DNA from: Isoetes taiwanensis
Taxonomy: Eukaryota; Streptophyta; Lycopodiopsida; Isoetales; Isoetaceae
Assembly (NCBI GenBank): GCA_021234155.1
Contig: JAJEKV010000080.1
Span: 2,899,867-2,963,866, forward strand
Length of the DNA: 64,000 nt
Reading direction: 5' to 3'
This document shows, one piece after another, positions 5,600 to 64,000 of this stretch. The notes beneath the pieces were generated by a model. It ran no database searches. It worked only from the letters and a program-made list of their open reading frames with translations, and was not told the origin of the DNA. The position numbers and the translations under genes are program-made. How positions within the stretch are numbered: position 1 is the stretch's first letter; each line of letters begins with the position of its first letter.

Positions 5600-6030
5600 A
5601 ACGTTGAGCCTTTTCGACGTCTATATCGACCTTTGAACGTCGATGCAACGCCGATCATCGACGCTCAAAGGTCGACGGTAAACCTCTATATCGACCGACG
5701 ATCGCCGATCGTCGACCAAAACCGCCGAAATATGTGTCGAAAATAGCGGGCGCGATGGTCGCATTTATGGATGATCGATCATCGACGACCGGACGTGGCG
5801 ATGCCACGGGTGATGCCATCACTGCCGCCCAGTCGTTATCGCCCAATCAACGCCGATGATCGACGCTCACCGGCGTGCCATGGTGGCGTGGCGCGCAACA
5901 CCGGAGGTTCGGCAGGCGGCGGCGGCGTGACGCCAGACGCCGATGATCGACGCTCATGCGAAGGACGGCAAAAACCCATCGCTACCATGCCGTGGCGTGC
6001 CATGGTGGACGCCGATCATCGACGTCTCTA
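5600..6030. repeat. Left subterminal palindromes of CACTA
   Basis: About eight copies of the hyphenated palindrome CGTCGATNATCGACG or close variants (GCCGATCATCGACGC, GCCGATGATCGACGC) are spread over 430 GC-rich bases. In CACTA elements such subterminal repeats are transposase binding sites. That function here is inferred from position and symmetry. Confidence 0.75.
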
Positions 6031-9900: not shown

Positions 9901-10317
9901 CCAAATTAAACTAATTTTATCGGCAATGCATAAAAAAAAATACAAAGAAAAAAGGATTCTCGGATTAACCTAAATACATTAGCAAATAAATTTACAAAGA
10001 GTAGTAGGTGAGCTTGGACCCGAAGCACTTAGTCCCTCCACTCAAGGTGGAGTCGACCATGCCCCTTGCCCAAGTCTCCCCAAGTTTTTTAAACCTAAAC
10101 AAAGCATTAAACTTAAACGTATTAAAAATAAATTCTTACCCGAATAAGTACAAGGTGTTCGCTGTCGCTCAAAAAAGCAACGCATTTTGTTAGGAGTTAT
10201 GCATGCAAAACAAGACATCCAATGGTTAGAAAAATATTAAACTAAGTAAGAAACAAAACATTGCAAGGTCGCTCATCGACCTTGCATTAAAAAAAAAAAA
10301 ACAAAAACAAAGGAAGT

Positions 10318-10900: not shown

Positions 10901-11010
10901 GCAACGTCGATAATCGACGTCGCGACGTCGATAATCGACGTTCAGTATAAACGTCGATGATCGACGGATATACCGACAAAACGGTCAATATCGACGTTGG
11001 CCAAAAAAAA
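10901..11010. repeat. Internal cluster of CACTA-type palindromes
   Basis: Three ATCGACG palindromes (two ACGTCGATAATCGACGT and one ACGTCGATGATCGACGG) lie next to a poly-A run. The part from about 10,946 recurs at 22,087 as the left edge of the duplicated segment. This may be an old element end now inside the larger CACTA. Confidence 0.65.
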
Positions 11011-20214: not shown

Positions 20215-20598
20215 TGTTGAAATATGGGGTTCTTGGCATGCACCTTGTTTGCTGCGGCAGACCATGGTCACGGATGCAACAAGGCTGCCACAAATGCTCA
20301 AGAATGACAAAACAAAGGGGAGGAAACTCCAAGAACACAAACAGGGCACAAATGCCAAGAAATGAACAAAGTGGATCATATTGCCAAAATGAGGCGCTCC
20401 AAAACGTGAGCTGAAACCCTCACAAAATGAGGCGCTCCAAAACGTGAGCTAAAACCTTAACAATGAGGGAAATGCTCTCTATATAGTGAGCAAACCCTAA
20501 CCCTATATGATGACAACATGTGGCCATGTGCCACTAACATCTATGATGACATGTGGCCTATGCCACTAACGTCTATGACTTAGCCCAAGGGGCTAACA
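20215..20598. repeat. 3' LTR
   Basis: Near-identical to 17,129-17,513. Visible differences are a few short indels and substitutions within the first 150 bp, which suggests a fairly recent insertion. Confidence 0.9.
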
Positions 20599-20603
20599 CT
20601 CAT

Positions 20604-22085
20604 GCCCTCCACGACAGTATCCCGCATCCACATCCTAGGCCAATTGACTACGAGTGTGATGGAAGTGAGCTACTTTGGCGCTTCTTGGAGGTCGGGTGGT
20701 CTTCCTGCCACGGAACTTGGTCCCCGGGCAATGTCGACGTTTCGAGTCCATTGGCGAGCCAAATCGCGATTCCGAGAGAGGGAGGTCGCTCGTCCGGCCC
20801 CTGTGGCCTTGGGGAGAGGAAATCCCGGGCAAGCAGCTTCGGGATTTTAGGGTCCGTGCTCAAGGCCAACACCCCCACTCCACGCCAAGTCACGCGCAAA
20901 GGTCCCACCCGAATCTGACAAGGAGAGGGCCTCCAAAATGTAAACCCTGTGGGTTGCCAGGTTCTAGAAGGGTTTGCGTTTTGGGGGCCGAGACTTGGTC
21001 TGTTGCACTTGGGACCTGGCCGAGAAGCCGGCAAAGAAATACGGAGCAAAGGGGAACTGACGGAGCGGAGTTTGGGCCTGTCCTCCCGATGTGGCAAGTA
21101 GAAGTCGGGGTGCTTTTGCAATGCCAAGACATTCATAAATTCGCAATTAATGCATTGTACGAAAATAAATTCTGATTTTTTTGCGGCAAGATTCCTAATC
21201 CATCTCCAAAGACATAGCCCAATTTTGAAATTTTCGGAGAAGGTCTAGGTCAAAGGGTTAGCATTAGAACGGTCGGGGAGCCCGCTGGCAGGCAACCGAG
21301 AGTGGCACCCTTCCCCAAGTCAAACGAGGTCAGGACCTTGCAGGGGATCCCTCACAAGAGGGGAGAGTCCCAGGACCCAAGAGGCGGGGATCCAAAAAAA
21401 GTTCGAGGCAGCCCTTCCCCGGCCAAAGCCCTCCCGGTGACGCTAATGACCACCCTCCCGGGCCTGGTTCCCCTATCCCACCGTTGGATCCTTCGTTCGA
21501 GGGGCCCCTTCGAAGGCCCAAAAAGATTCCAGATCGGTCCGGAGAACTTGTCAAACCGCGTGGCGCCCCGAGGTCGGCCTTGTAGAAACCGGGCAGATGT
21601 CTTGTCGCCGGGCACCGGGGAGGCTCCGGAATGGCAAATCGACCCTCGCCAAATCGTCCTAATGGCGAAATTACCCTAGGGAGCAAGTTACAAGGTCGGT
21701 TTTGCAAAAGAAAGAAACACTCATGCCCTCCACGACAAGATCCCGCATCCACATCCTAGGCCAATTGACTACGAGTGTGATGGAAGTGAGCTACTTTACG
21801 CTTCTTGGAGGTCGGGTGGTCTTCGCCACGGAACTTGGTCCCTGTGGCAATGTCGATGTTTTGAGTCCATTGGCGAGCCAAATCACAATTCCTCAGAGAG
21901 GGGAGATCGCCCGTCCCCGGCCCCTGTGGCCTTGGGGAGAGGAAATCTCGGGCAAGCGCTTCGGGATTTTAGGGTCCGAAGCTCATACAACACCCCCCAC
22001 TCCACGCCAAGTCATAGCGGGCCGCAGCCGAGAATACGGAGCAAGGGGAACCGACGGAGGCCGGAGTTTGGGCTCGACGACATTT
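20604..22085. repeat. 1.1-kb tandem repeat, rest of unit 4, unit 5, partial unit 6
   Basis: The array resumes after the CTCAT duplication. Anchors are at 20,841 and 21,963 (1,122 bp apart). Unit 6 is cut after about 120 bp and joins the duplicated segment at the palindrome near 22,087. The junction shows a deletion within the unit between about 22,019 and 22,080. Confidence 0.9.
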
Positions 22086-22086
22086 T

Positions 22087-23370
22087 AACGTCGATGATCG
22101 ACGGATATACCCACAAACTGGTCAATATCGACGCTGGCCAAAAAAAAAAGTTAATTGTACCTACAAAGGTTCAATTGAAGCAAAACCCCGACATCCAAAA
22201 CCCTAGCCGCTTCAAATATTCTTAGTTGAGGCAACAAGAGCTTGGCCGCTTCACATCTAGTTCTAGCAAGCATCCCAGCGCCTTTGGAGCGCGATCTAAG
22301 GTTACATTTTGTATTTCCTTTCTCTGCAATCACTCCTTGTTCATTATCGTTCTTCGCCCTTATTTGTAGCTCTTTCTAATGTGAGGATGCAGATGCCTCG
22401 CCCTACTATATGAATAACGCCATTGGAAAGACGTTTGAGTATGGTTGATCGTGTGCCGCCAGCCGGGCTGCGAAATCCTCCGGGAACTATCAGCAGCGCG
22501 AAGATGAAGCATTAGAGGAAATAGAAGACCAGCTAGAGCTGTTGAAGAAGAAGAGAGATGAATACAATAGCTTGCCCGATAATACCGCACCGGTATTTGG
22601 AGAGAAGTTGGCAAATTATGTCGCGGAGCTGAATTTCATTGAAGGCATTATTGGATGTGTTGACGACATTGAGTGTGAGGTCGTTCCTCTTCCACCTTTG
22701 AGGCAACCTCACGATCTCGATATTTTTAGCGTGATATTTGTACTCTAATCATAGTATTTGAGCGACATTGGATAAGTATTTGAGAATATTTGAGTATTTT
22801 GTTCAAGTTTTGGATCTTTATAGTCAGTTATCTTTTGTTCTAGCATTTCTTATACTTATATTCTCATATTCAATCTAAGGATGTTATTGTTAGATAGGCT
22901 CTGGTCTTGGATTGAAGTGGAATAGCAAAGATCTCCTCTTGCATATGATTTTGCACTCATCTACATAGCATTGCAAAATCAAGATCCTATGCTCAAATTG
23001 AATGTGCAATCTCACGGACATATCGACGAATTGGTTGCGTTCGATGGGGTCCGTCTCTTGGGGTAGGGTTAGGAGCTCGAATTTAACTCATGGCTTAGAT
23101 AATGCTGAGATAGTTGATGACAATCAAAACCAAAGAGTAGAGAAAGAAAAGGATGGAGCGATTCTTGCCTAGATGATGACCAAAAGCCAAGTATGTCAAG
23201 TATTGAAGATGGAGATAAGGGTGGAACGCCAAAATATTATTCTCGCTGCATGGCTTAGATAAAGACAACATAAATGGTGTATATCCTAGTTCCTTTCTTT
23301 GAGAAATTGACCGTGACATGGTCACTAAGCAGTCGCATTGCACGGGGACGCCACGAGAATTAGAATGTCC
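22087..23370 (+). repeat. 1.3-kb duplicated segment, copy B
   Basis: Second copy of 10,946-12,238, about 11.1 kb downstream in the same orientation. It is followed again by the 1.1-kb repeat. Confidence 0.85.
22402..22748 (+). pseudogene. Small ORF of the duplicated segment, second copy
   Basis: The 3' part is open from at least 22,542 to a stop at 22,746-22,748. It reads YNSLPDNTAPVFGEK, then FIEGIIGCVDDIECEVVPLP, and ends DIFSVIFVL. Upstream, the equivalent of the start in copy A is broken by a TGA after the sixth codon. Each copy therefore keeps a different part of what was probably a protein of about 115-120 residues with a charged coiled-coil centre. I do not recognise the family. Confidence 0.4.
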
Positions 23371-25469
23371 GGGATTTTAGGGTCCGTGCTCTGCGGCGTC
23401 CAACACCCCCACTCCACGCTAAGTCACGCGCTAAGGTCCCGCCTCGAATCGACAAGGAGAGGGCCTCCAAAACGTAAACCCCGGTGGGGTTGCCGTGTTC
23501 TAGAAGGGTTTGGCGCTTTGGGGGGCGAGACTTGGTTTGTTGCACTTGGGACTCCGCGCAGAAGCCGCAATGTGAATACGGAGCAAGGGGAACTGACGGA
23601 GCGTAGTTTGGGCCTGTCCTCCTCCATGTGGCAAGTAGAAGTCGGGGGCTTTTAAAGTGGCAAGACATTCATAAATTTGCAATTAATGCATTGTGCGAAA
23701 ATAAATTCTGATTTTTGCCAGCGGATTCCTAATCCATCTCCGGCCTACAAACCAATTTTCGAAATTTTTAGAAGGTCTAGGTCAAAGGGTTAGCATTAGA
23801 GCGGTCGGGGCAGCCTGCTGCGGGGGCAGCGGCACCCTTCCCCAAGTCAAGCGAGGCCCAGGACCTTGCGGGGATCCCTCACAAGAGGGAGAGTCCGGAC
23901 CCCAAGAGGCGGGATCAAAAAAGTTCCCGAGGTAGCCCTTCTGGCGGCTCCCCCGGGCCGCACGCTAATGACCACCCTCGGGCCGGTTCCCCTATCCGGC
24001 CAGTTGGATCCTCTGTTCAGGGGGCCCCTATTCGGGAAGGCCCAAAAGATTCCAGATCGGTCCGGAGAACTTGTCAAACCATGGCGCCCCGAGGTCCGCC
24101 TTGTAGAAACCGCAGTGTCTTGTCGTTCGAGGCACCGGGAGGCTCGGAATGGCAAATCGACCACGCCAAATCGTCCTGAATGGCCGAAATTACCCTAGGG
24201 AGCAAGTTACAAGGTCGGTTTTGCAAAAGAAAGAAAAACACTCATGCCCTCCACGACAAGGTATCCCGCATCCACATCCTAGGCCAATTGACTACGAGTG
24301 TGATGGAAGTGAGCTACTTTGGCGCTTTTAGAGGTCGGTGGTCTTCTGGCCACGGAACTTGGTCCCCGTGGCAATGTCGACGTTTCCGAGTCCATTGGCC
24401 CGAGCCAAATCTCGATTCCGAGAGGGGAGGTCGCCCGTCCCGGCCCCTGGGGCCTTGGGAAGAGGAAATTTGGGGCAAGCAGCCCGGGGATTTTAGGGTC
24501 CGGTGCTCGGCGTCAACACCCCTACTCCACGCCAAGTCACGCGGCGCAAAGGTCCTTCCCGACCGACAAGGAGAGGGCCTCCAAAACGTAAACCCCGTGG
24601 GTTGCCCGTGTTCTAGAAGGGTTTTGCGTTTTGGGGGCGAGACTTGGTCTGTTGCAATTTGGGACCTGGCCAGAAGCTGCAGCCGGAAATGCGGAGCAAG
24701 GGGCCCTGGCGGAGTGGAGTTTGGGCCTGTCCTCCTCCCGATGTGGCAAGTAGAAGTCGGGGGTGCTTTTGCAAAGGCAAGACATTCATAAATTCGCAAT
24801 TAATGCATTGTACGAAAATAAATTCTGATTTTTTGCCAGTGGATTCCTAATCCATCTCCAAAGACACAGCCCAATTTTTCAAATTTTCTGAGAAGGTCTA
24901 GGTCAAAGGGTTAGCATTAGAATCGGTCGGGGCAGCCCGCTGGAGCAACCGAAATGGCACCCTTCCCCAAGTCAAACGAGGCCAGGACCTTGCGGGGATC
25001 CCTCACAAGAGGGGAGAGTCCTGACCCCAAGAGGGGATCAAAAAGTTCCCAGGCAGCCCTTCCCGGCAACGCCCCGGGGTTGCGCTAATGACCACCCTCC
25101 CGGAGCCCGGTTCCCCTATCCGACCGTTGGATCCTCCGTTCAGGGGGCCCTCTTCGGGAAGGCCCAAAAGATTCCAGATCGGGTCCGAGAACTTGTCAAA
25201 CCAGCTGGGCGCCCGAGGGCCTTCCTTTGTAGAAAACCGCGTAGTGTCTTGTCGTTCGCACCGGGAGGCTCGGAATGGCAAATCGACCACTGCCAAATCA
25301 TCCGAATGGCGAAATTACCCTAGGGAGCAAGTTACAAGGTCGGTTTTGCAAAAGAAAGAAACACTCATGCCCTCCACGACAGTATCCCGCATCCACATCC
25401 TACTGCCAATTGACTACGAGTGTGATGGAAGTGAGCTACTTTGGCGCTTCTTGGAGGTCGGGTGGTCTT
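23371..25469. repeat. 1.1-kb tandem repeat, units 7 and 8
   Basis: Anchors are at 23,371 and 24,487 (1,116 bp apart). The last unit stops at GGTGGTCTTC near 25,469, where transposase-related sequence takes over. Confidence 0.9.
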
Positions 25470-25860
25470 CGACCATTCACCGTATTTATCAACGTGATCG
25501 ATGATAGTCTTTCTCATCCGTTTTATTTGTCCTTTGCACATCGCGCAATTGCAATAAAGCCGCTCTGTCAAGTACAAACCGAAAAAAGTTTATTAGGATA
25601 CAAAGTTGGCAATCATTGAAAACATGTTTCTAGTACATACGTCAAGGCATTCATTTCATCGTGCATGCCACTAAGGCTATGGGGAAGACTCGGACCACCG
25701 GGTCTAAGTGGACTATTTGTGGCAATTGTTGGAGTAACATCTTTCTTGCCGATCGCCATTTAACAATCTTAAGGCTTTTGTTGCATTTTACGTTCATGGT
25801 CGGCCTCACGCTTGTCCATGTTGTTTACTACAAGCAAAAAATGTTAATAAAACTAATTTA
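25470..25860 (-). pseudogene. Transposase-associated zinc-binding segment, relic
   Basis: On the minus strand, 25,577-25,470 reads LYCNCAMCKGQIKRM followed by RKTIIDHVDKYGEW. The CxC..C....R....H...G...W pattern resembles the small domain at the N-terminus of plant CACTA TnpD-type transposases (Transpos_assoc). Upstream on that strand, an exon-like stretch after a TTGTAG acceptor near 25,830 reads MDKREADHERKMQQK. The 1.1-kb repeat array begins where the protein should continue, so the transposase gene appears to have been split by the array. Stops and a frame break lie between the pieces. Confidence 0.45.
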
Positions 25861-26504: not shown

Positions 26505-26961
26505 ATCGTCGATCATCGACGTTTATCGTCGATCATCGACGTTTAACACCACGTAGGCATGCCTAACGGGCGACCACGTCGGCCTCGGCCAGACCACGCA
26601 TTCAACGTCATCTCGACACAACGTCGATCATCGACGTTCCACGCCATTGCCTGCACCACGCTAGCCAGGACCACGTAGGCATCGGCCAGGCCACGCATGC
26701 CATGTCATCATCGACACAACGTCGATGATCGACGTTCTATGCCATGCGCACAGCCACGCGGCCGTCGGGCGACCAGGTAGGCATGCCACGAGGCCAAAGG
26801 CGACACGTCACTCCAACTGAGCGTCGATAATCGACGTTCAATGGTCCGCCGGTCGACGTTTGATCGGCAATAGGCGATCGACGTTGACCGTCGATTGTCG
26901 ACCCGTTTAGGTCGATAATCGACGGACAAATGTCGATTATCGACGTTGATCCCTTGTAGTG
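26505..26961. repeat. Right subterminal palindromes of CACTA
   Basis: At least eight copies of AACGTCGATNATCGACGTT or variants, ending at the GTAGTG terminus. The same motif fills the left end, as expected for one element. Confidence 0.8.
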
Positions 26962-27094: not shown

Positions 27095-29500
27095 ACTTAA
27101 TATCCAATTCATGTCATACAATACCTGCTTATGATTCCTTCGGAGGGATGATTTCATGATTAAAAATGAAAGCATTCCTTCCTTTCCAGATCCTCCAAAG
27201 GAGGATGTAAATTCTCCAGTCAGTTGGGTTATTGGGCATAAAGAAATCCCTCTGGCTCAGGACTACCAGGTTCTGACCAAGGATGTCTGAGGCTAATTCC
27301 AATATCCATTCTGACCACAGGCATAGTCTATAGAGATGATCCTCGATCTTCTTTATCGGTAAGACACCTGTCACATATATCCGAATTAGCCATAGATAAT
27401 CGATACCTCTTACAATTGGTTGCCAGGCCCTTGTGCCAGAGCTGTCACATGAAGGCCTTGATTTTTGGATTGATCGGGCTGCTCCACATGAAGTCTAGAT
27501 TTTTTATGGCCGTACCCGGGGAGACTCCCCATTTTAGGTGAATGGTGATCTCTGTTTGACTCATCAAGAATCTATAGGCTAGCCTGACCTTGTATCCTGT
27601 TTTATCATTGTAATTCCATGAGTCTGAGGGGTGAGACCATCTACCCTGCACAACAGTGTTAATAATAGCATCATAAAGCAATTTAGTTTGATGATCTTCC
27701 TCGGCAAGGATGGAATTCTGGAATGGGATAATGCCATTATCATCAAAGAGATCACTGATCAGATTAATCCCCTTTTGCTTCCATAATTTGGCCTGCTCTT
27801 GGAAATGGCAAGCAAGGCATATGCTGGGATTATCAAGAATTAAGGCTGTGTTCCAGAAGATGGATTGCTCCACAGAAAGTCCTTTTTCCCAGGTATACAT
27901 CTGCCTAACCTCAAGCCACGCTTTGATCCATTTCTTGATTAAGCCCGGAATAGTAGCAGGAACTGGGAAGTAAATAGAGTAGGGCAGTTCCATCTTGAGG
28001 ATCCTCCATCCATACGGGTGACACTTGTTGATGTAGTGCCTAATCAAGATCGAGATTGGATGCTTTATTTTGTCATAGCAAGCTCTGTAAAAGTATTTCG
28101 CAGCTAATGCCAAGCCCTGTTTTCTGATATTCATGGTGCCTAGACCACCTTCCTTTTTGGGCTTGCAGCATTTCTCCGTGGAAACAGGGTGCCAGCACCT
28201 TCTGTTTTGACCACAAGAGATAAACCTGCCAATAATGCTTTGAAGCTTGTTAGTAACTTTTTTGGGAGCTAAAATGACCGAAGATTGATAAACCTACGAA
28301 GAGGAGATCACAAAGTTGGCAACTATGGCCCTTTCATTTTTAGAAAGATACCTGGAGTTCAGGGAATCAACCTTTTTGTAGAATTTCTCAATAATGTCAT
28401 TCCATAAATCGGAGGCATTACTTCTAATGGCAAAAGGGATTCCTACAATTTTAGATTTAGTACATGGGGTGTAATACTTACAGCCAAAGAGGCCAGCTGC
28501 TTGTGTACCTTTGTCAATCTCCCTAGATTGAATGGCAGACTTAAAAGGATTAATTCTGCACCCCGAGGCTTGACAAAGTCCTGAAGGATATACTGAGTGT
28601 TGATGATGGAGTTGTGATCCATTGAGGTCAGAATAAAAGTGTCGTCAGCGAAGTGTCCATTTAGAATTTGGTCCACACAAAGGTTATCCGAAGTCAAGTC
28701 CCTTAATGAATTATTGTTCTTGGCAGCTTCCAGTCTGCTATGCAAAGCCTCCATAACAATTAAAAAGAGAAAGGGTGCAAGAGGACAACCTTGTTTGACC
28801 CCTCTTTGAATTGAGAAGAAGGGGCTGCACTCACCATTAATGAGGACTGCAGTTCTAGAATTACCAAGAATAGCTTTGAACATACCGATGCTTTCTTCGT
28901 TGAAGCCCAATGCCCTGCAACTCTTGAAGAGAAAATTCCAACTAACCGTGTCGAAGGCTTTTGTGATGTCCAATTTGAGAATGGCTATATCTTGCTTGGA
29001 TTCTTTAGCCCAGTGGATTCCTAAAATTGCAGTAACCACATTATCAAGGATAAACCTGTCTTTGAGATACGCTGATTGAGTGCTGCTAATAGCAGAGTCC
29101 AAAACTTTCTTGAGTCTGGCAGCAAGAGCACCTGCAATTATCTTATAGATGACATTAGTAAGCGAGATAGGTCTATAATCAGCAAAGGAGATGGGAGAAT
29201 CAATTTTCGGGATAAGGGTGATAAGGCTCGTATTGATTCTGGCATCCAAGCGCTTACAGATCCTGAATTCGTTGGCAAGCTTGGTAACACCTTCACTTAA
29301 GATTGGCCATGCCTTTTTGAAGAATTTAGCAGGCAGGCCGTCTGGTCCCGGGGTCTTTCCATTATCCATGCCTGAGATTACATCCTTAAGCTCATCCTCG
29401 GTAAAGGGGGAAGAAATCATGTCATTCTGATGTTGACGAATTTGAGAGCCAACATCTTTTGTACATGGACATTGCAATGTGCCAGAAATATTGTTTGGGA
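27095..29500 (-). mobile_element. Plant L1-type LINE, 5'-truncated and broken
   Basis: The largest frame (28,443-29,477, 344 codons) is a reverse transcriptase. It has MDNGKTPGPDGLPAKFFKK, then FADYRPISLTNVIYKIIA, KLDITKAFDTVSWNFL, QRGVKQGCPLAP and the catalytic FADD box (GHFADDTFIL). After a frame break comes a 229-codon C-terminal part (27,445-28,134). Then a zf-RVT-like segment reads LWHKGLATNCKRYRL, CDRC and LLWRIWKGRNAFIF (27,129-27,430). No endonuclease domain or ORF1 is present, so the copy is 5'-truncated, as is usual for LINEs, and it has several frameshifts and stops. The family is the standard plant L1 type, distinct from the LINE at 43-47 kb. It abuts the right end of the CACTA element. 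Confidence 0.85.
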
Positions 29501-29878
29501 TTGGAGGTTACTGTGGCAAATGCATTATATGTTGATCTATGCACTCCAAGTGAATGAAAATTGTGTGTCTCTACAAAAAGTTTGACGACGGACTTTGAGC
29601 ACTAGCATGTAGAATGCGTTCCAACTTCGCACAAGGTTTCAAACTAATAAGTGAGTGAGTGAAGAGAAATGTTCGCGGCGGCCTTGGCCGCAGCGATAAA
29701 TTTCTTGTAGTATTATAGGGTAGCATGTTTGCCAGCTTGCCTAATTTAGGGTACACGATTTCGTGCAATTCTAGGTTGTCCACATGGACATCCACATCAC
29801 CAAATTCTATGGCTTCCCAATCTCATTCAGTAGACCCCTTGTTCACAAGTTTAGTTGTTTAGTGATGCAAAATGGGAA

Positions 29879-32900: not shown

Positions 32901-33960
32901 TGTCAGTAACAAATGAAGATAAGAAAAACCTTCTAGGAAGCTCTAACACATCCAATGAACCTCTTCATGTCTGTATGATAAGGAATGATATGGTAGTTAA
33001 ATCAATGAATTAAATGCGCGTTGGCATCAGTTTTCTAATAAGTGTGAACAAGGGTATAAAATGTAACTTTTGTGTGTTAAATATAGCCCTTGATGGACTC
33101 CCAAAGTAGAATTAAATGAAGGCAAGTGCCCGAACATAAAAGTGATGGTCTCCTTTTTCATTTGAACTTTGTTGTGCTCCTCTTTCTTTTTGCAATATAT
33201 GTTTGCACTTGTCTAGAAATAGATACAACTTCAAAAGTTTGCTGCAAAAGAGCAAAGTTTGAGCATTGAACCGTAGGTCTCATCTTATTAGGTCATTTTA
33301 GTTAGTTTGAAACATTTGTGCATGTGGCATATGGATCAAAATGCACCCTAGGGATTTAGAGTGGCAATCCAATTCACCAATTTAGATAAGACTAGAGTAT
33401 ACAACCCCATAGTGTTGACTCCATTGCTTCTAGAAACAATATGTTATCTGTTGAAACATCCCCCACCATTAAAAAGACACCATTTGTTTTTTTGGGTCCA
33501 AGAATAAAAATTTTGCCAGACAACAAAGTTGAAAATGAAACTCACTTATTTGCTGCAAACGCACTTCAAAAGGAATCTTTGAAAGATTCCCTAAAATTCC
33601 CTTAAAAAGTCCATTTTTAAGATTTTTTTGTGACGGGTGTGACAATTTAAGTAATTTAGGTACCATTTTTGAGGGGTTGATTGAACATAACTTTCATGCA
33701 AAATTTTTAAATAGCAATTTTCATCCTTCTAAACTAGAACAAAAAATAATTACTTTTATAAAGTGTAGCAAAAAAGGGGCAATAAAAAAAATAGCAAGGG
33801 TAGTAGAGTGACAAAGAAGTGATATATTCATGGTTGTGAAAATTGTACAAAATTATGAACAAAATTGTCAAAAATATAGGACATTTTGACAAACACTCAT
33901 CACACACTTTACGTTCTTTATGTTCGAGTCATCGGACAAACTTACATTTTGCAAACAAGA
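29973..33960. other. AT-rich intergenic, no gene supported
   Basis: This 4-kb AT-rich stretch has short frames only. The longest (29,992-30,345, minus, 117 codons) contains NEVYSILKALNW but no motif I can assign. At 31,750-32,200 there are degenerate TTGGTTTTCT...GGTTTAT repeats. ATGACATG recurs at 32,762-32,800. Confidence 0.45.
32342..32556. repeat. 107-bp tandem duplication
   Basis: AAGACAAGCCCT starts at 32,342 and again at 32,449. The two 107-bp copies differ at about four positions and both contain ATCATGATCTTAATAGTAGA. Confidence 0.9.
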
Positions 33961-33988
33961 TCGGGATGCATCTCATCCTCCGACTCAT

Positions 33989-36160
33989 TTAATCCCTGAT
34001 CACTTGAGCCTTCATCCTCAGCTTCACTCTCAAAGGCCCGGATGTACTCGAACGATCTTCTTCCTCACTATCTACAAGTGAGTCTTCATCATCATCTTTT
34101 TTTGCCATCTTTCTAGGTTGTTTGTCTAATCCACATGTCGACCTTATTAAAGTTTGAGTGACCATCACGTAACTTATTAGCGGCGGTCGAACAAAGTCAT
34201 ATGCAAGAACCTTTACTTGACTAGATCTATGGCAGCCGGTGCTTGCTTTGGACTTAGCTCTCTTTCCCACTCTGTTTTACCATCTCCAAAGTATAACTCC
34301 CACCGAAAAGCATTGGCGATTCGTTCTCATTCGGTGCACTTTTAATTGAGTGGGAATTCCATCCTCTCTTGTTACCTCCGTACTTTAGCTAGCCAGAATG
34401 GCTTCCCAGTTCATCATTATCGGTTTGGGGCAGCTATGAGCATTCCTTTCTGAATCTCACGAGACTGAACCGCCGCACACTTTCGAGCAACTTGTTGTCT
34501 TTGTGCGTCACGGGGCGGTGTACATGACTCATCATCTTCATCCGAAGCTAGCCAATATCTCTACATGTTCCTCTTGATTCTCAACTTGCACGAGGGAGAG
34601 TTTGCCTAGATGGCCAGTTGAATATAACCGGTCTTCGACCTTGTAATGAAGCTTGCAAAATGTCACGTTGTTAGAAAAAAAAAGGCCACCATAAAGCATC
34701 TGCCTCCCCAAAGTGGTTAGAGCACGATGAATACTTGTCTCAATAAAATCCAATGATTTGTTTGAGTCAAATGCTCTTCCCTCTTTTTTTACTCTTTGTG
34801 ATTTCTTTCAAGCTTTTAGAGGCATTTGCTCTGCGCAGAGAGCATGGAACTAGTATTGGGGATGGTGCGAATGAATTGAATACTTTGCTGGCTGCCACTG
34901 CAAGGATGTGGCATATTTCTTTCCTTGTGAAATGGCCTTGCCATCTACAAGTGAAATTTTGATCTGATGCTGAAATGTAATGTTTCTCAAGAGCTCAATA
35001 GCACAATGACCCAGTTGATCTCTCCGAAAAATCCATTCCTTGAAATCATAAGTTTCTTCTAATAACTCGATGTCTGGACGAGGATTGTAGGAATCTTGGA
35101 TTACCTCAATCATTCTTTGGTAGGTCGAGAGCTTTTTTGAGCAAGACGTTTAGAGAACCTCTTGAACATCCCACGTCAATTTGATCGTGACAAGCGGGGA
35201 AACCAATCTTCACCTTCTTGAAGATTTGTTTCTCAACTAGCATAACCTGATGTTTAACAAGGCCTGATTCTTATTATCTCTTGTCGTGTTGTCTAGCTGA
35301 AGATATAGAACCGGTGGTATATGTTCTAGATTGGAAAGAAGCTTAGTCAAGATTGTGATAGTGAGATTTGGATCAGCATGAATGTTTGGATAGTTCAAAA
35401 ATGCCTTGCAAGATAGTTTTCCATTAAATACCATAGCACCAACAACATGCAGGTGTATGAAATCTTCTTCAGCAGCATCCTTAGGCACATTGACAAAATG
35501 TGGTAGGGTGGTCTTCTTCTGGTCCATTCCATCAATAACAACCGATATGTAGTTGAGTGGTTGCTCCAGTGCTTTCTTCCTATGTTTTGTCAATTTTCTC
35601 CTTTCTAAAGATTGTTGTTCTCTGTGCTTGTTCAGTTTCTCTTTCAATGCATCTGAAATGAAAACATGTTTAGGAAAGAACCTACTTTTAAGTAGAACTA
35701 GGCAAGAACACGTCCTGGAAGCTTACTTTTAGTGTGAAGTGTCCTTGCATTTTGTCTCTGAGCTTTTAATTCAGAGCATGTAGCACAAACAGACATCCGG
35801 TGCTTCTAGGAATGGACACGCCGGTGAAAAACTCTTTTTTCCAGAGCACAGTGAAGTAAGAGTAGCAAACATGGCGTTCTCCAGCCTCAACACACATGTC
35901 CTTATAATTATCGTAGACTTCACGTTTAGCGGAAGTTGTCACTCAAGTGGTACATGGGGCTGTTAGGGAGTTTCGCGAAGACTCCTTAAAGAAACCTTCC
36001 ATCCAGGAAACACATTGAAGGGCATGAATTCGGATATACCTCCCGAATGGCGAGAGTCATTAATGCCCGGATTCTTGTCAAGCCTTTTCTTCAGGTCAAG
36101 TCGTCTGTTGCCTAAAGCATGAAACAATTTGAAGGCCGTTTGATTTATGTGTGTGGCCAC
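33989..36160 (-). pseudogene. Second DUF7869-type gene, broken
   Basis: The best-preserved part (35,237-35,652) reads LNYISVVIDGMDQKKT, then HLHVVGAMVFNGK, AFLNYPNIHADPNLTITILT and LYLQLDNTTRDNKNQ, the conserved core of the DUF7869 family. Upstream, an exon with FTVLWKKEFFTGVSIPR and SVCATCSELKAQRQ is separated by a clean GT-AG intron (35,653-35,726). Downstream, the hallmark G-H-T-H-x-x-I-D block is damaged: GFPACHDQID remains, then a frame change gives MFKRFSKRLAQKSS. Next come IEVIQDSYNPRPDIELLEET (34,850-35,113) and an acidic Asp/Glu-Ser tail (33,989-34,270). The core is intact, but several frameshifts and stops disable the whole. The retained intron argues that it descends from a genomic gene copy rather than a processed transcript. 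Confidence 0.7.
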
Positions 36161-36199
36161 CAGCCGTAAAGTAAACCTTTCACCATAATCGGCCTAATA

Positions 36200-37070
36200 T
36201 TGAAGGCTAAGTAGCCCCTTTGGTCTAGCGAGTCATTGAATCAGAACTATCACGAATCAACCTCAATTCCTTTAGTCCAATCTTAAGCAAACAACGTCGA
36301 GAACAACGATTAGCTTTGTATGTGTTGCCCTCAAGTGAGCCTCGGCCATGAGTTTCTTTCTTCTAACGGTTGTACATGCTTTCTTGTGTAAGTTACGGCT
36401 TTAAGATTCTTACTTGCGGGGGCTTTGAATTCAACATGGAGTCTTGTGGCTTTGGTAGGTCCTCGTCCCGAGATCAACATGAGGTGTTTCTTCGCCACGA
36501 GAGATCAACATGAGGTGTACTTAGACGCCCGAGGTTTGGTGTGGGCAAGTCCCGGGGGGAGGTGCTTTCCTGTCTCCGGGAAAAAGTAATCGAGGTTGGT
36601 GGCGTAGTTGACCAGCTCTGGCGTGTCGTAGAACACGGGGAGTTGTGTCTCACCGACTGCCCCCACTTGTTGTAGTACCATTTAGCGAAATGGATGGAGT
36701 TGGCGTGATTAAGCCTCCAGGGATTTAGCCTCACGATGGACTATAGGGGCGATGCTAAAATGAAGTGGGGTAGGTAGTCCGACCTCTCTAGCCTTGTGGT
36801 GGAGTAAAACGCGCGTGGGTGGGGCAAACGGCGTTTAGGAGCTGGGTGTGGTGGAGTAAATTGAACTGGTGGGTGGAAGCCCAGGTGGTCGTCTTTGGAG
36901 AAAACTCAACAGAGCTGGGGGTTTGAATATCGGAGGCGAAATTTTCGAGGCTACTTCCAGTGTCGAGTTGAGGAGGTGTGAATGTCATTGCAGGAGGAAG
37001 CCCTCGCGAACGAGGATTGGAGGCTCTGCAATTCTTTTTCTCGAGCGATACCGAGAAAGTTAGCGTCCAT
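36200..37070. other. GC-richer intergenic, upstream of methyltransferase locus
   Basis: Frames of 60-90 codons overlap on both strands (for example 36,474-36,734 minus) with no recognisable motif. The palindrome array begins at 37,075. Confidence 0.4.
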
Positions 37071-37074
37071 TACT

Positions 37075-37248
37075 CGTATAAATTTATAATGACGTAAGAG
37101 CGTGACGGTAAAAGTTTACCGCGGGGATGGTATAAATTTATACTGAGAAGGCAAACTTGAAGCGGAATTGTATAAATTTATACGAGAGATGGTATAAATT
37201 TATACCGGAGGAGGGCAACATAGAAAAGAAAACGTATAAATTTATCAC
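37075..37248. repeat. Palindrome cluster 1, upstream of the gene
   Basis: Five copies of GTATAAATTTATAC or one-off variants, in about 170 bp, at 37,076, 37,130, 37,170, 37,192 and 37,234. A further imperfect palindrome, GGTAAAAGTTTACC, lies near 37,108. Each half contains TATAAAT, so these could also act as two-way TATA elements. That is inference. Confidence 0.85.
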
Positions 37249-37532
37249 GAAAACTCACGTAGACAGTTGTATTGAAAACTTTATGGAGAAGCGCTATCTG
37301 AAAGCGACACTTAGCGAGAGGTACTTAAGCCCGCGTGCGGCCACTTTATTTTTTCTATATCTGGCGGCTACTGTTGTCGAAGGCGCTCGCGGTCTGGCTT
37401 ATATACCCCTTATTTGCTCTCTAGAACGTCTATCTGGCGAGTCCATCTTGCCATGGCCCGCGTAAGTCTCCCTAACCGCAATCTTGTTTTTAGTTTCTCT
37501 TTGTTTTAATGTGTTAGAGTGTAAAAAGCATC

Positions 37533-37898
37533 GGTATAAATTTATACGAAATGGTTCTCGAGGCGGTATAAATTTATACCGTTCAAGAATTCCGATCGGT
37601 ATAAATTTATACCCGCCCGACAGAAATTCTGGAGCGGTATAAATTTATACCGCTTTCGAGCAGGCAAGGTATAAATTTATATAGTTTCTGTATTATAAAT
37701 TTATCCGTTCTTGCGAACACGATCGGTATAAATTTATACACATAAGTGTTACGGGCGGTATAAATTTATACCGCTTCGTCTTCGAACGGTATAAAATTAT
37801 ACCGCTCCAGAACCATTTCGGTATAAATTTATACCGACTGTGTTCTGCAACGGTATAAATTTATACCGCTCGTGCTCGAGCGGTATAAATTTATATCG
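37533..37898. repeat. Palindrome cluster 2, twelve copies
   Basis: Twelve copies of CGGTATAAATTTATACCG or variants are spaced about 30 bp apart on average. Eight have the intact 14-bp core. The intervening sequence is unique and GC-richer. The cluster lies either in intron 1 or in the promoter/5' leader, depending on which start codon is used. Confidence 0.9.
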
Positions 37899-38100
37899 TT
37901 CCAGAACCATTTCGGAATCTTGGTGTCTAGTGCTTAGAGAATGGTCCCGAACCTTAATATTTTAGTAATATTGTTGTGTTTTAAGCTTAAATGACACAAA
38001 TATAGTGTTAATTTAGTGTGGATTTTATGCCCTTTCAGCCTCTTTTTTTACGGTTTTTTTGTTTCAAAAAGTCGAAAAAGGTTCTGTTTCTTGTATAAAA

Positions 38101-41100
38101 ATGGTTTTTTTTTACGCTTTTTCCAGCCCTAAGATCAAGTTTGTACACAGAGGCCAATCATCAAAGGCTACACCACCAGAGCCACAGACTTATGAACTAA
38201 AGGAACAGATTTGGTACGTCCACAGGGGCGCAAGAGTGAGCAAACCCACTGAGGCGTACCTTTACTTGTGCCATCAATCAGGGAAGGGCAAGTACAAGTC
38301 TGATGATTATTACCCTGCTGGCGAAATTATAAGCCTTGTTACTACAGAGAACGATGATGAAATTTTGATGAAGTGCAATCATGACAAGGGGGAGGTCTAC
38401 TATGTTCTGAATAGTGGAATGCTTAGAATAAGCATGTGCAAGCCCAAAGACGTGTATGATTACATTGCGGACAATTACAAGAACGGCTTTGTAAGTTATT
38501 CTTAGTTGCTTTCCGTATAAATTTATACCGTCATTCTCTTAACTTAACCCTGCATTACAGGACATAGTAGAAATTTTGATGTCAATAGTGCTGTGTGAAG
38601 AAAAAGTGTTGGTCAAGGGTCTATGGTACCCCCGTACTATTGAAGAGGAAGATAAGGACGAGGAAGTAGTAGAAGAAGAGGAAGAGGAGGAACCAGTCGT
38701 CACAAAGGGAAAGGGTAGGAAGCATTCCATGGTAGTAGACACACAGCCTCCTACCAAGAAAAAGTCTAGAACCACAAAGTCCTTGACTATAGAGGAGTCA
38801 GCAGAAGCTCTTCAGAAGGCTCCTGGAGCAGATATCGTTGTGAAGCCCGCAGATAAGTCAAGTGCTATTCTTAAGCGGGTTAATGAAACCAAACTGCTCA
38901 AGCAGACCATTTCGTTGACACTAAGCACTATTAAGAGGCCACCAAAAAATGAAGATGGGGTCAGAGTGCTTCAGGTCCGAAAGTTGTACGCGGCACATGT
39001 GGCTATCCTTAAGCAAAGAATGAGAAGGAATCCTCATGCCCATGTGTCGCCACTAGTTGTGATGGTAGACAGAAGTATTATGTTCTTGGAGGCAGACATA
39101 GTTATAAAGCAAGAAAAGAACTTTCAAAAGAAGAAAGCCGTAATGAAGTCTGGAGGAGCGTGGAAGCACATATCTATGTGGGGGTGACAGACGAAGAGGC
39201 AAAAGTCATTGCCGTGAGTCACAATCTCGACAATGACTTCAGACTAAAGATGAGCCTAATAGACAAGATTCGCTTCATGCACCGAGAGTACGTGGATTTC
39301 AAACAAGTGCATGGAGACGACTTCAAAAAACAAAAGAACAAGCTTCAAGAGCTTCGAGAAGCCTGTGTGACAGAGTGCTGCCTCAGTTATGATTCGGATA
39401 AGAAACCCATTATGGCTGTCAAACAATACGATAACTACTTTCAGCTCGCTTTCAGAGATGGTCAAGTAAGTAAAAGCTTCAACTCAATCTTTTGTAGTAT
39501 GTTTAGCGTGGTTAGAAGTGTGTAATAGCCTGGTGACGGTATAAATTTATACCGCGACCGGGAATATAATACCGCGACCGGGCTCGGTATAAATTTATAC
39601 CGCGACCGGGAACGGTATAAATTTATACCGCGACCGGGCAAGGTATAAATTTATACCATGCTTAGTCGCCGTGCCCATCCTCTTACGCCATTCAACACTA
39701 AACTTCGTTTGACCATTTACAGGTGTGGGATCTTCAAGAGAGAATTTTTTGTATGTTCGAAGATGGTGAGCTTAAAGAACAAGCTAGCAACGCAGGAAAG
39801 AAACCAAAGAAAGGTGGTGAATCAAAACAAAAAAATATGAGCACTGTACCCTGGACGCAGTTACAGGGTCTCAAAAGCAAAAAAATATTTGTTCGCCTGT
39901 TGGAAAAAGTAGTTGCCAAAGAATTCACATTAGACGAGATGGCCAAGGAAGCTAAGACGTAAGCTTCACTTGCTATGCCATGTTTTTTTCTACATTTTTT
40001 GTCTTACAATATTTTTCCCTTTGCAGTCAGAAAGACATTGTCACTTGCCAGGCCGAGTTAATGAAGCAGCTAAACCTAGAGGACTGGGAAGAGTGCAAGC
40101 TTTTGTACCCAAGTTGCACCACAGATAGTATCATCAGAGAGCACGCTGTTAACTTCAGTGGCTGGGTAAGTTTTGCAAAAAATATGTTATGTGTTTGTGC
40201 CTTTGTCTCATATTATTCTTACAGAACAAGAAGAAGGGGCTACCAACTGGATTTTTAAACCTCGTTCGTAGGGCCAAGGAGGAGAGGCATAGGCTTAAGG
40301 CAATTGAACAGGGTAAAGAGGTCGCCACTTGCAGGTTTAACACTACTTATGAGAGATTTACTACATTTGGTCAGGATGTCCAGTACAGGGTTGTTCAGGG
40401 TGATTGTACAAGGCTGGGGACTCTTTTAGACAAGCAAAATTTTACATTATGCATTGCAGATATTCCTTATGGATTCAAAATAAAGGATAGCGCTTTTGAC
40501 GAGGAGGCTTTCACTCACGTGCAAGTCCGGTCTTTCTTGGATGGCCTAAAAGAAGTCACGACATCTGAAAACTGGAGGGTCATCATTTTTCATTCCGACC
40601 TGCAGACGATGTCGGTGCTTAAACCTATGGGAGCGGTCTGTAACGCCGGCTTCGAAAACTGCGTTTGGTAAGCTTTACATTTAACGCTATGTTTTTACGG
40701 TAACTTCACGGTACAAATTTATACCACATCTGTCTTAAGGTTTAAAGTTTAAAGGCTGGAACAACCGTGGTATAAATTTATACAGCAAGGCAATGTCTGT
40801 ATAAATTTATACGGCTTGCCGCCGTGGTATAAATTTATACAGCAAGGCAACCGTGGTATAAGTTTATACCGCCACACTACTGGGGTAACTTATTTTCCTT
40901 GTTTTCTTTCTACTAATTTTTAATTGCTGTATTGCTTGGCAGGCTTAAAACAAACGTCAAGGGTCATGGTGGTGGTCCGCGCTTAGTGAGTTGTTTCGAG
41001 AATTTTCATATAGGTTTTTACAGCGCGGACACCAAAAAAACCATGATTCATTTCAACACGCAGAATGAGAAGACTCCTCCCTGCAATGCATTTCAGTTTC

Positions 41101-41630
41101 CAGCTGTTCTGCAGAAATTAAGAGACCCACAGCGACAAGGCGCTGTGGTGTCCCATTATCAGAAGCCACAGCGGCTTATTAATAATTTGATACAGTGGTT
41201 TTCTCGCCCTGGAGACTGGATCTTAGATGCCTTCTCTGGATCAGGCACCACAGCAGTTTGCGCCCTTAAGCAGGGGTGCAATGTCGTCTCCATCGACATA
41301 GACCCAGATAAAGTAAGTTTCATCAGGACTAGGATAAGCTCTTGTGAATCCTTTCCTGATGAAAACGAGGAACTGGGAGCAAAGAATGGTGCCAGCGATG
41401 TTAAGGGCACTTACACAGAAATACAGCCTCCACTTACCGGAAGAAAAGATGAGGAGGTGGAGTTTGTCGACTTGGAGCCTGTGGTGCCCGAGCCCGAGAA
41501 ACCGCCTGTGCCGGTAGGTTTGGAATCAGAAGGAGGCGTCTCTGCTGTTGTAAGCTCGCAAGAGCCAGATCCTAAGGGGTACGAGAGTCCTGTGGACTGG
41601 GAAGAGCCACCTCCCCCACCTTTCGTATAA
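38101..41630 (+). CDS. ParB-like / DNA amino-methyltransferase fusion gene
   Basis: Exons: 38,101-38,490, 38,561-39,465, 39,723-39,958, 40,027-40,165, 40,225-40,667 and 40,943-41,630. All five introns are GT-AG and phase-consistent. The product is about 933 residues. Residues 1-170 are unassigned. An acidic stretch and basic PTKKKSR (possible nuclear signal) follow. Near residues 250-335 a ParB/Srx-like domain has YYVLGGRHSYKARKEL and YVGVTDEEA. A beta-class DNA methyltransferase follows, with motif IV DIPYG (about 636), motif I DAFSGSGTTAVCA (about 802) and an acidic IDID. DIPYG replaces the usual DPPY/SPPY, so base specificity (N6-A or N4-C) cannot be called. Exon 3 is 905 bases and reads in two frames meeting near 39,070, so one base seems missing. 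The alternative start is ATGGCCCGC at 37,453 spliced to 38,134. The N-terminus is the least certain part. Confidence 0.8.
38513..38530. repeat. Palindrome copy in intron after exon 1
   Basis: A single copy, CCGTATAAATTTATACCG, lies in the 70-bp intron 38,491-38,560. Confidence 0.9.
39537..39658. repeat. Palindrome cluster 3, five copies in an intron
   Basis: Four intact copies and one damaged copy are separated by the spacer CGCGACCGGG, giving a short tandem array of about 27-30 bp period in intron 39,466-39,722. Here the palindrome has been amplified together with a spacer. Confidence 0.9.
40709..40871. repeat. Palindrome cluster 4, five copies in an intron
   Basis: Three intact and two one-off copies (GTACAAATTTATAC, GTATAAGTTTATAC) with the repeated spacer AGCAAGGCAA lie in intron 40,668-40,942. 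The two other introns (39,959-40,026 and 40,166-40,224) are short and have none. Confidence 0.9.
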
Positions 41631-41638
41631 ATTTATAC
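41625..41638. repeat. Palindrome copy overlapping the stop codon
   Basis: The last copy, GTATAAATTTATAC, contains the gene's TAA stop (41,628-41,630). The array therefore ends exactly at the 3' end of the coding sequence. Confidence 0.9.
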
Positions 41639-41640
41639 AG

Positions 41641-43300
41641 ACAGAGTTCTTAACTACTTCCATTGTAAACTATGTGCTAAGTATTATTATAATTTATTTT
41701 GATGAAGATTTTTAAACTGAAAGCTTTGTCTCTTTAACAATGCTTAATTGAAAGAACTCTTTCTTGCTCCATGATTTCACACTCTTTGTCTTTCCAATGT
41801 TTGACTTTTTTAGTACTTCTATTAAGCTTGCAAAAAGACAATCTATATTTCCTTCTGTTTTTAACAATAAATACTTACTGAGTTATCAAAATTAATGTCT
41901 CCCTCCTCAAAACAAGCATTTTTTTTCCCTCTTTTAAAAATGAAAAGGCTTCAAAAATGTTGCTTTTTTTGGGGTATCCCGAATGCTAATTGCTCAACAA
42001 TCTATTTTGCTCCCTATTTTGTGTGTTTTTTTTAAGTTTTCAATTTTTATAAAGGAATCTTTCAAACGCACTTCTTAAATAAGTGCGTTTCATTTTAAAC
42101 CTTGTTAGACCAATTTTGTAATTGGCATGCATATTTGTTCTTGGCATAATATACTATTTCAATGGTATGCTTGGTTTGGAATATTGGTTGCATGTTCTCT
42201 AATGTATATTATTGTGGTGCGGCAACATCGTTAGACTAGGTATTGCCTTGGCTTTACTGCCTTTGAATTTCCTTATGGGTAGTGGGACATCAAGTTAATT
42301 TGTAAGGCAATATAATTGCCTTAGTTTTGCCATGCCAATATATTAATGGTTTAACTCCATTCAAAATAAAAGACGAGCACCTTGAATATCGTGGGATTCC
42401 ATTATCGATTATAAGCTGCAGATGTGTTGCGCATCTAGAGGCCTTAGAGCAAATCTTGAACTCCCTGATCTGCTTCAGGCAGATCCATCTAACCACCAAG
42501 ATAGTGCGACGTGGCTTTGGCATGGGAACAAGAGGTCATGTTTTGTTAAAGACAGAAGGCCAAAAGGCTGAACATGGATGCCTCTCCATAATGGACGGTG
42601 AGCCCTCACCCTGATGCTGCCTCGAACGATACTCGAACCCTCCCTCTCTCTTCTTCATTCCCAGCTTACTTTCTTCTTTTGCATTAAATCCCTTAACTAT
42701 TAAGACAAGGACCTTTAATAAAAAGAAATGATATAGGGGGCTTTCTTAAGTACATGCTAGGAGGGCTCATACCACCACCTTGACATTTAATAACAAACAA
42801 TATAACCTCCAGGATCGAAACCAATAATACAAGAAGTTTATCTTGGCAGCCAAGGTCGTTGCGAACATTCATTTGGTTCTAGACCTATGAGGTTAGACCC
42901 CCCCAGTAACATCTAACATTTGATACTGCGATTCAACACAAATAAAACTCATAGCTTGATGTTAAATTTTCATTACCGGTAACTTAGTCAATCTGTGGAA
43001 TATAATTTATTGTAGAAGAACTACTTGTTGTAGCATATATGCAAAATGTGTACAAGGAAACCTCTAAAAGTTGTCATGAGCAAAGCAAGGAGCATCCTTA
43101 CATGTTTTCATAGCAGGCTGCAGATTTAGGGCACCAACAGGTCGGTTAACGGATTTCATAGCAGACTCTCCCCATTGGGGGGAGAAGGAAAACTTTTGGA
43201 ACATCAAGCAAAGGAGAAACCCAGGATGATTTCGATTTGCTTCATAATCAGATGAAGAAGCTGATGCAGGAAATAACTGAGACAAAAAGCCTGGTGCTGG
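41641..43300. other. AT-rich intergenic, no gene supported
   Basis: Short frames only. Overlapping frames at 42,290-42,614 on both strands show no family motif. No palindrome of the upstream type was seen here. Confidence 0.45.
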
Positions 43301-48234: not shown

Positions 48235-48610
48235 AGTCGAGAGAGCCTTCGACTCGCGAAATGAGAAAGGTATTTCAAAGCCAAAAAAACGCAGTTTTCA
48301 ATAGTTTCTTTTCACTCGCGAGTCGAAAAGGCAACTCAAAGCGAAAACACAAGTTTTAGGGTCGAAGGACTTTCTCGACTCGCGAAGTCGCAGAAAGGCA
48401 GCTCAAAGCTTAAAAACGCAGTTTTGGGTTAAGGTTCTTTCTCGACTCGCGAAATGAAAGGAAGCTCAAAAGCCAAAAACGCAGGTTTTAGAAAGGCCTT
48501 TCTCGACTCGCGAAGTCGAAAAAGGCAGCTCAAAGCTTAAAACCTAGGTTTGAGGGCCTTTCACTACGCGAGTCGAAAAGGCAGCTCAGAGTGAAAATGC
48601 GCCTAAGGCC
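48235..48610. repeat. 62-bp minisatellite with CGACTCGCGAGTCG symmetry
   Basis: Six imperfect units lie near 48,246, 48,312, 48,374, 48,441, 48,503 and 48,563. Each unit contains either the left or right half, or nearly all, of the palindrome TCGACTCGCGAGTCGA, followed by AAAGGCAGCTCAAAGC and an A-rich GCAGTTTT segment. Confidence 0.85.
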
Positions 48611-63689: not shown

Positions 63690-64000
63690 CATGGCGCCAA
63701 TGAAGCGGCCACATAAACCAGGGTTTCCCTCAAAGCTAGAAGCATCAAGACCTCGATTTGCTAATGCCATTGGAATTTGACCTGATAACTTGTTGTTGGA
63801 TAAATTAAGAAAATATAAATGCATATCTGCAAGACCAGGAGGAATGCCACCACTCAGTAAATTGCTTTGCAGATAAAATGCTCCAAGCTTGGCATTCTTA
63901 AACTCCGGCGGAATTTTACCACTGATATTGTTGAAAGATAAGTCCAATATTGGCCATGATGAAGATCTACCAATGTTAAAATCCTGCATTTGTAGCGTAG
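63690..64000 (-). CDS. LRR protein exon, partial at window edge
   Basis: An open exon with plant-type 24-residue leucine-rich repeats: ILDLSFNNISGKIPPEFKN, then AFYLQSNLLSGGIPPGLAD and LYFLNLSNNKLSGQIPMAL. These are followed by the cap FEGNPGLCG that usually ends the ectodomain of LRR receptor-like kinases and proteins. The exon appears to end at a donor, GCCAT|GTAAGC, near 63,690. No transmembrane or kinase exon is recognisable further left before the secreted-protein gene, so the protein may stop soon after the LRRs, or the gene may be truncated here. The 5' part lies beyond the window. An AG acceptor (ATGCAG) near 63,978 may mark the exon start. Confidence 0.75.

Follow-up and report, generated by a model that had tools for sequence, protein, structure and literature searches.

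In Arabidopsis, the transposon-encoded protein VANC binds arrays of family-specific motifs in the non-coding regions of VANDAL elements and causes the loss of silent marks there (PMC5735166, PMC10398659). Other mobile elements carry a DNA methyltransferase, among them DIRS elements with a Dam-like enzyme as well as the retrotransposons SymbioLINE-Dnmt and KnitGypsy-Dnmt3 (PMC5890265), and cut-and-paste TET/JBP DNA transposons of fungi encode an enzyme acting on DNA methylation (PMC12730594). Motif-array anti-silencing, methyltransferase transposons and TET/JBP DNA transposons are already known separately; no report was found in the open-access PMC literature that combines palindrome arrays with a cognate methyltransferase of bacterial type in one DNA transposon. 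Here, we describe a candidate for this combination in a 64,000-nucleotide stretch of the Isoetes taiwanensis genome (assembly GCA_021234155.1, contig JAJEKV010000080.1, positions 2,899,867 to 2,963,866 of the forward strand; hereafter the window), in which copies of the palindrome GTATAAATTTATAC crowd the promoter and introns of a ParB-like/N6-type methyltransferase gene carried by a DNA transposon.

VANDAL/VANC is the closest working model. In both cases, dense family-specific motif arrays lie in the promoter and introns, within tandem repeats, of an element that encodes its own protein, and the motif varies between related families (PMC5735166, PMC10398659). The differences concern the parts: a methyltransferase with a ParB-like region stands in place of VANC, long perfect palindromes in place of an asymmetric 9-mer, and DUF7869 in place of a Mutator-type transposase; any likeness in the effect on silencing would be by analogy. 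The elements of PMC5890265 are retrotransposons with Dam-like or Dnmt enzymes, whereas the enzyme here is CcrM-like, and cognate motif arrays are not described in the portion of that report at hand. The TET/JBP transposons employ oxidation and not methylation, and the TET/JBP stretches compared in PMC12730594 are reported to end without a palindromic sequence.

The original prediction had assigned the palindromes to a methyltransferase locus. This is not a host locus but a single member of a large DNA transposon family of plants, with the arrays in its promoter and introns. In a genome of 1,658,258,908 bases (1,110 contigs), homology to copies on contigs C970, C919 and C907 breaks off at 33,522 (33,519 in one case) and 42,106 (42,109 in one case), and the 3' end of the element falls at the same place in 25 of the 29 methyltransferase loci L006-L034. 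Terminal inverted repeats of 30 bp and 4-bp target duplications are present in all four copies compared, the duplications of the other three being TTTT, TTAA and GGAT; C907 lacks about 0.9 kb of the element's interior. The element and its ends are laid out as follows.

33518..33521, no strand: target site duplication AGAC, left (copy comparison)
33522..42106, no strand: whole DNA transposon copy, 8,585 bp (homology to the copies on C970, C919 and C907)
33522..33551, forward strand: left terminal inverted repeat, 27 of 30 bases matching the right one (copy comparison)
34430..36740, reverse strand: transposase-like gene (DUF7869), broken here, approximate span (homology to copy C919)
42065..42089, forward strand: perfect 9-bp inverted repeat near the 3' end (seen in the sequence)
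42077..42106, reverse strand: right terminal inverted repeat (copy comparison)
42107..42110, no strand: target site duplication AGAC, right (copy comparison)

The methyltransferase gene is intron-rich and lies head to head with the transposase-like gene. This arrangement recurs in the genome: 35 pairs stand head to head, 4.8-8.5 kb apart, and one pair within 12 kb is otherwise arranged (drawn from 150 methyltransferase hits and 117 of 151 transposase hits). The window copy is probably inactive, because the exon 3 frame and the transposase gene are both broken. A 2,203-bp derivative (L003) has both inverted repeats, an AAAT duplication and six exact palindromes, its genes being reduced to an exon 2 relic; that a gene-less copy, the single one of this kind, retains the array fits a cis target of a trans-acting protein. 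Another copy, L016, is rearranged, with 363 bases matching 36,658-37,028 inverted directly before sequence matching 39,810-42,106.

Other identities for the locus were considered and set aside. A host gene with local repeats is ruled out by flanks that differ among homologous copies, and a Helitron, suggested by the hairpin near the 3' end, is argued against by the inverted repeats and 4-bp duplications. The same terminal features, together with the DUF7869 gene, leave a Mutator/VANDAL element unsupported. They also speak against a DIRS retrotransposon, as does DUF7869 as the second gene; neither a reverse transcriptase nor a tyrosine recombinase was among the Pfam hits of the element segments scanned.

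With up to two mismatches allowed, GTATAAATTTATAC has 28 matches in the window, of which 20 are exact; all fall in the interval 37,076-41,638, and a degenerate remnant near 39,565 comes in addition. Shuffled windows (n = 100) yielded a mean of 0.36 matches and at most 2. The original prediction, which had counted about 29 palindromes by eye, 20 with an intact core, and judged them too many for chance in 64 kb, is confirmed, its count becoming 28 at this cut-off. Eight of the 28 form the perfect 18-mer CGGTATAAATTTATACCG. Seven exons were placed by splice signals, the first only tentatively, and the palindromes fall between them in the following order.

37076..37247, no strand: upstream array, 5 palindromes, 3 exact (GTATAAATTTATAC matches)
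37453..37461, forward strand: methyltransferase exon 1, 9 nt, tentative (gene model)
37534..37896, no strand: intron 1 array, 12 palindromes, spacing mostly 30-33 bp (GTATAAATTTATAC matches)
38134..38490, forward strand: methyltransferase exon 2 (gene model)
38515..38528, no strand: single palindrome of intron 2 (GTATAAATTTATAC match)
38561..39465, forward strand: methyltransferase exon 3, ParB-like region, frame broken in the window copy (gene model; phrog_1033 match of a relative)
39539..39656, no strand: intron 3 array, 4 exact palindromes, spacing 28-48 bp (GTATAAATTTATAC matches)
39723..39958, forward strand: methyltransferase exon 4 (gene model)
40027..40165, forward strand: methyltransferase exon 5 (gene model)
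40225..40667, forward strand: methyltransferase exon 6, motif IV D-I-P-Y-G (gene model)
40711..40869, no strand: intron 6 array, 5 palindromes, 3 exact (GTATAAATTTATAC matches)
40943..41630, forward strand: methyltransferase exon 7, motifs X and I, PF01555 N6_N4_Mtase (gene model and Pfam)
41625..41638, no strand: palindrome containing the stop codon (GTATAAATTTATAC match and gene model)

Altogether, five palindromes lie upstream, 12 in intron 1, one in intron 2, four in intron 3, five in intron 6 and one at the stop codon. None is wholly exonic, though exons make up 2,777 of the 4,178 bp from ATG to stop, and the transposase gene of the window copy holds no copies of GTATAAATTTATAC. The units are locally tandem, and their spacers differ from intron to intron while the palindrome stays unchanged.

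Confinement to this locus, as claimed originally, applies to the window but not to the genome, which holds 12,556 exact copies of GTATAAATTTATAC against 17 of a reversed control (the motif pattern read backwards, also a palindrome and of equal composition). The suspected link to the ParB-like methyltransferase and its paralogues, in turn, is borne out: this genome-wide motif is nonetheless associated with methyltransferase loci, at least one exact copy being present in each of the 30 loci L005-L034, of which L005 is the window's own. The refuting case named in the original prediction, a genome-wide motif with no tie to these genes, does not arise. Four families were sampled and have four palindromes, all in non-coding places. 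They share the frame TAT-N6-ATA around the palindromic centres AAATTT (GTATAAATTTATAC), GAATTC (GTATGAATTCATAC), TCCGGA (GTATTCCGGAATAC) and GCGCGC (CTATGCGCGCATAG). The genome contains 64 copies of GTATGAATTCATAC (control 11), 3,720 of GTATTCCGGAATAC (control 0) and 1,551 of CTATGCGCGCATAG (control 0). GTATGAATTCATAC is carried by C1037, C1059 and C1043, with exon 7 70-74% identical to that of the window, and GTATTCCGGAATAC by C1034 (exon 7 57%) and by C1018, where the methyltransferase gene match is only exon-2-like and the motif appears extended as AAGTGTATTCCGGAATACACTT in four copies. The carrier of CTATGCGCGCATAG is C1075. The ends of the TCCGGA family were looked for and not found.

Among 68 loci, some of them overlapping, L054 alone has two motifs in exact form, its own five times and that of the window once. 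Seven further promoter windows comprised four with exact CTATGCGCGCATAG, one with near CTATGCGCGCATAG only, one with GTATAAATTTATAC and one with none. Exact motifs were absent from L058, L060 and the upstream pieces L038-L040, and L063 has three near copies only; of the ten transposase windows L041-L050, six have no exact motif and four have one. An exon 7 tree built from 39 rows, of which 34 are distinct and in which three copies appear twice, unites the 35 AAATTT rows, C1071 and C1083 included, in one clade (support 99/97) and the three GAATTC rows in another (95/88); these values are rough, as the bootstrap had not settled. The TCCGGA family is represented in the tree by a single row and the GCGCGC family by none; the motif labels were assigned by ourselves. 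Arrays occupy the upstream region and introns, but intron 3 in the window family and intron 4 in the TCCGGA copy C1034, which indicates that they were not simply inherited in place.

The original prediction had offered selection or repeated insertion as the cause of the constant motif. Across intron 6 of 30 loci compared with the window, motif columns are 5.1% different (97/1,916) and spacers 13.5% (400/2,966), with 15.0% in the rest of the intron and 8.3% in exons. Over the whole element, the window differs from three full copies by 3.7, 6.7 and 1.2% in motif bases, by 4.9, 5.1 and 9.4% in exons, and by 26, 31 and 26% in array spacers, the last being inflated by uncertain repeat alignment. 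Because the spacers diverge more than the motif, selection on the motif is supported, while insertion of the palindrome on its own account is not, since the arrays travel with the element; the original interpretation as a whole is partly supported.

The protein encoded beside these arrays resembles bacterial enzymes. Exon 7 matches PF01555 (N6_N4_Mtase; E-value 1.5e-14, 55 bits against a cut-off of 26.7), and the best matches of the catalytic part among solved structures are the adenine methyltransferases CcrM, MboIIA and RsrI; the N4-cytosine enzyme PvuII appears far down the list (E 0.048). The motifs D-[IL]-P-Y-G, HYQKP and DAFSGSGTT are common to three families, with one representative each, in the order IV, X, I. 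This is the order of the beta class. By its sequence, then, the enzyme would be a beta-class methyltransferase of the adenine type. It shares motif order and sequence similarity with CcrM, MboIIA and RsrI and differs from them in being a spliced eukaryotic gene with a ParB-like N-terminal part; no nuclease that might be a paired restriction enzyme was among the Pfam hits of the segments scanned, which covered part of the element's open reading frames. The ParB-like part matched the phage family phrog_1033 ("ParB-like partition protein", E 2.4e-7) with a query that included the exon 3 region of L054. The VANC domains DUF1985 and DUF287 gave no Pfam hit in five methyltransferase-gene segments of the window or in four segments of relatives.

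Exon 7 has 2,903 first-look candidates in the genome, the best 150 of which, the window's own copy aside, scored 71-98% identity. The ratio of non-synonymous to synonymous substitution rates (dN/dS) has a median of 0.045 and a maximum of 0.27 (306 pairs exceeding a dS of 0.05, from 28 of 30 loci that were picked by protein similarity), and the methyltransferase appears to be under purifying selection. A phage origin was considered and rejected: matches reach 31-48% identity over 41-80% of the query (among 20 of 45 records listed), and the ParB-like part has one phage match at E 1. One weak relative turned up in viral contigs and none in bacterial or archaeal genome contigs.

The transposase-like gene persists in the window as remnant open reading frames at 34,853-35,149 and 35,240-35,722. 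In C919, the frame matches DUF7869 (PF25273) with E 6.2e-54, the sole strong Pfam hit in three open reading frames scanned from C919 and C907, among which no Mutator-type transposase was detected. DUF7869 has 9,902 first-look candidates in its own genome (150 scored) and none in 14 control genomes. Motifs containing D are conserved by eye; a solved structural relative was not found by sequence, nor a paper in the open-access PMC literature. DUF7869 is a little-described transposase candidate whose copies may run into the thousands.

Since the palindromes are dense, family-specific, symmetric and non-coding, in an element that encodes a DNA-modifying protein, they would be best explained as recognition sites of that protein. 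We regard binding by this protein as probable. That the palindromes serve as cis recognition sites of the element's own methyltransferase, in a self-marking and anti-silencing arrangement, has in our view about an even chance, and anti-silencing as the outcome, argued by analogy, seems to us as apt to hold as to fail. From these features we infer binding, methylation and a chromatin effect in the following manner. Intact copies would supply the ParB-like/beta-class N6-adenine methyltransferase, which would bind the promoter and intron arrays of its own gene as well as those in non-autonomous copies, and would methylate adenines in or near them. The methyl mark might then label the element as open chromatin and keep it expressible against host silencing; N6-methyladenine (6mA) accompanies permissive chromatin in unicellular eukaryotes (PMC12695648). 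Each family would have evolved its own palindromic centre in the fixed TAT...ATA frame, plus its own protein, and would act mainly on its own kind. The complete picture, of a land-plant transposon lineage with a self-recognition epigenetic system in which a horizontally acquired bacterial-type adenine methyltransferase is loaded by its ParB-like part on family palindromes and writes an activity-keeping mark, is a tentative one that falls somewhat short of even chances.

Other functions could be imagined for the same arrays. The ParB-like methyltransferase or another element protein might bind the palindromes only to control its own gene, as autoregulatory operators, and it suits this that the window arrays lie upstream of and within introns of the methyltransferase gene, with none in the transposase gene. 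The gene-less L003 nevertheless retains its array, and 28 sites across 4.5 kb, mostly intronic, are more than an operator requires, which makes this reading unlikely. We give still less credit to the palindromes being binding sites of the DUF7869 transposase, similar to the subterminal repeats of CACTA or hAT elements. Transposase divergence does track the motif (two hits next to GAATTC clusters are 83% identical, members of the group including the TCCGGA copies 73-76%), one exact and one single-mismatch copy of CTATGCGCGCATAG adjoin the transposase gene of C1075, and the window has subterminal palindromes of apparent CACTA elements; the palindromes in question, however, are internal and mostly in the other gene, none in the window copy being closer than 3.5 kb to the left end or 460 bp to the right end.

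Neutral expansion of tandem repeats in introns, homogenised by slippage and gene conversion, would account for locally tandem units with periods of about 28-38 bp. It is very improbable in view of a motif that remains the same though spacers differ between introns, that is conserved well above the spacers and near exon level, and that follows one design with four palindromes, for which the window family uses intron 3 and C1034 intron 4. Finally, self-complementary intron repeats might base-pair within the RNA and influence its splicing or the generation of small RNAs, as 22 of the 28 palindromes are intronic; yet five lie upstream of the ATG, the gene-less L003 retains its array, and all four motifs are perfectly symmetric about the TAT/ATA frame, as dimeric DNA-binding proteins demand, so that we consider a function at the RNA level most improbable.

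Recognition by the methyltransferase has to be weighed against several observations that do not favor it. Transposase and methyltransferase diverge together, and the motif could follow either protein. Exon 7 distance alone fails to predict the motif: C1071 (74%) and C1083 (71%) stand at the same distance from the window as do the GAATTC copies (70-74%) and yet retain AAATTT, and it takes the tree to join them to the AAATTT family. The GAATTC motif has a genome count only about six times its control, and its promoter array is a mixture of AAATTT, GAATTC and hybrid sites, the hybrids being in the promoter array of L054. L067, one of the seven extra promoter windows, lacks all four motifs even at two mismatches. 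In C919, motif bases are slightly more different than exons (6.7 vs 5.1%), and the choice of loci by protein similarity biases dN/dS low. The exon 3 region of C1075 has no ParB-like PHROG match, and neither it nor that of L054 has a Pfam ParB hit; the label is limited to "ParB-like" because the PHROG match occurs in L054 only and the Pfam ParB models missed both.

If the self-marking proposal were true, at least four specificities would have arisen by a changed palindromic centre within a constant TAT...ATA frame, and the strategy of VANC would have been invented independently. It would also give plants, for which loss of the AMT1 6mA pathway has been reported (PMC12695648), a 6mA system that is sequence-specific. 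The elements are a second, unrelated candidate for transposons that recognize their own DNA by short motif arrays, so that the arms-race model proposed for VANC becomes testable by comparison, and the families supply a ready-made series in which each protein is paired with a palindrome of altered centre. The proposal predicts where 6mA, a disputed subject in plants, should lie in such a genome. Raw Nanopore data can show this, part of the reads behind the I. taiwanensis assembly being of that kind (PMC8566536).

The remainder of the window holds further repeats and coding fragments. A second, unrelated palindrome, AACGTCGATNATCGACGTT, occurs at 5647-6026, 10903-10968 and 26505-26947 (also at 10265 and 22087), with 15 matches at no more than three mismatches and a shuffle mean of 0.00; its 17-bp core has 321 copies genome-wide, the reversed control none. 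Ends of the CACTACAA type adjoin two of the AACGTCGATNATCGACGTT clusters, which suggests ordinary CACTA subterminal repeats. A tandem array at 48249-48588 consists of 63-67 bp units with the near-palindrome TCGACTCGCGAAGTCGA, and a sequence of about 1-1.3 kb is present in repeated copies, 86-91% alike, at 20595-25471. On the reverse strand, 28446-29507 encodes a reverse transcriptase (RVT_1, E 1.4e-28), probably of a long interspersed nuclear element, and 63690-63998 a leucine-rich repeat coding fragment.

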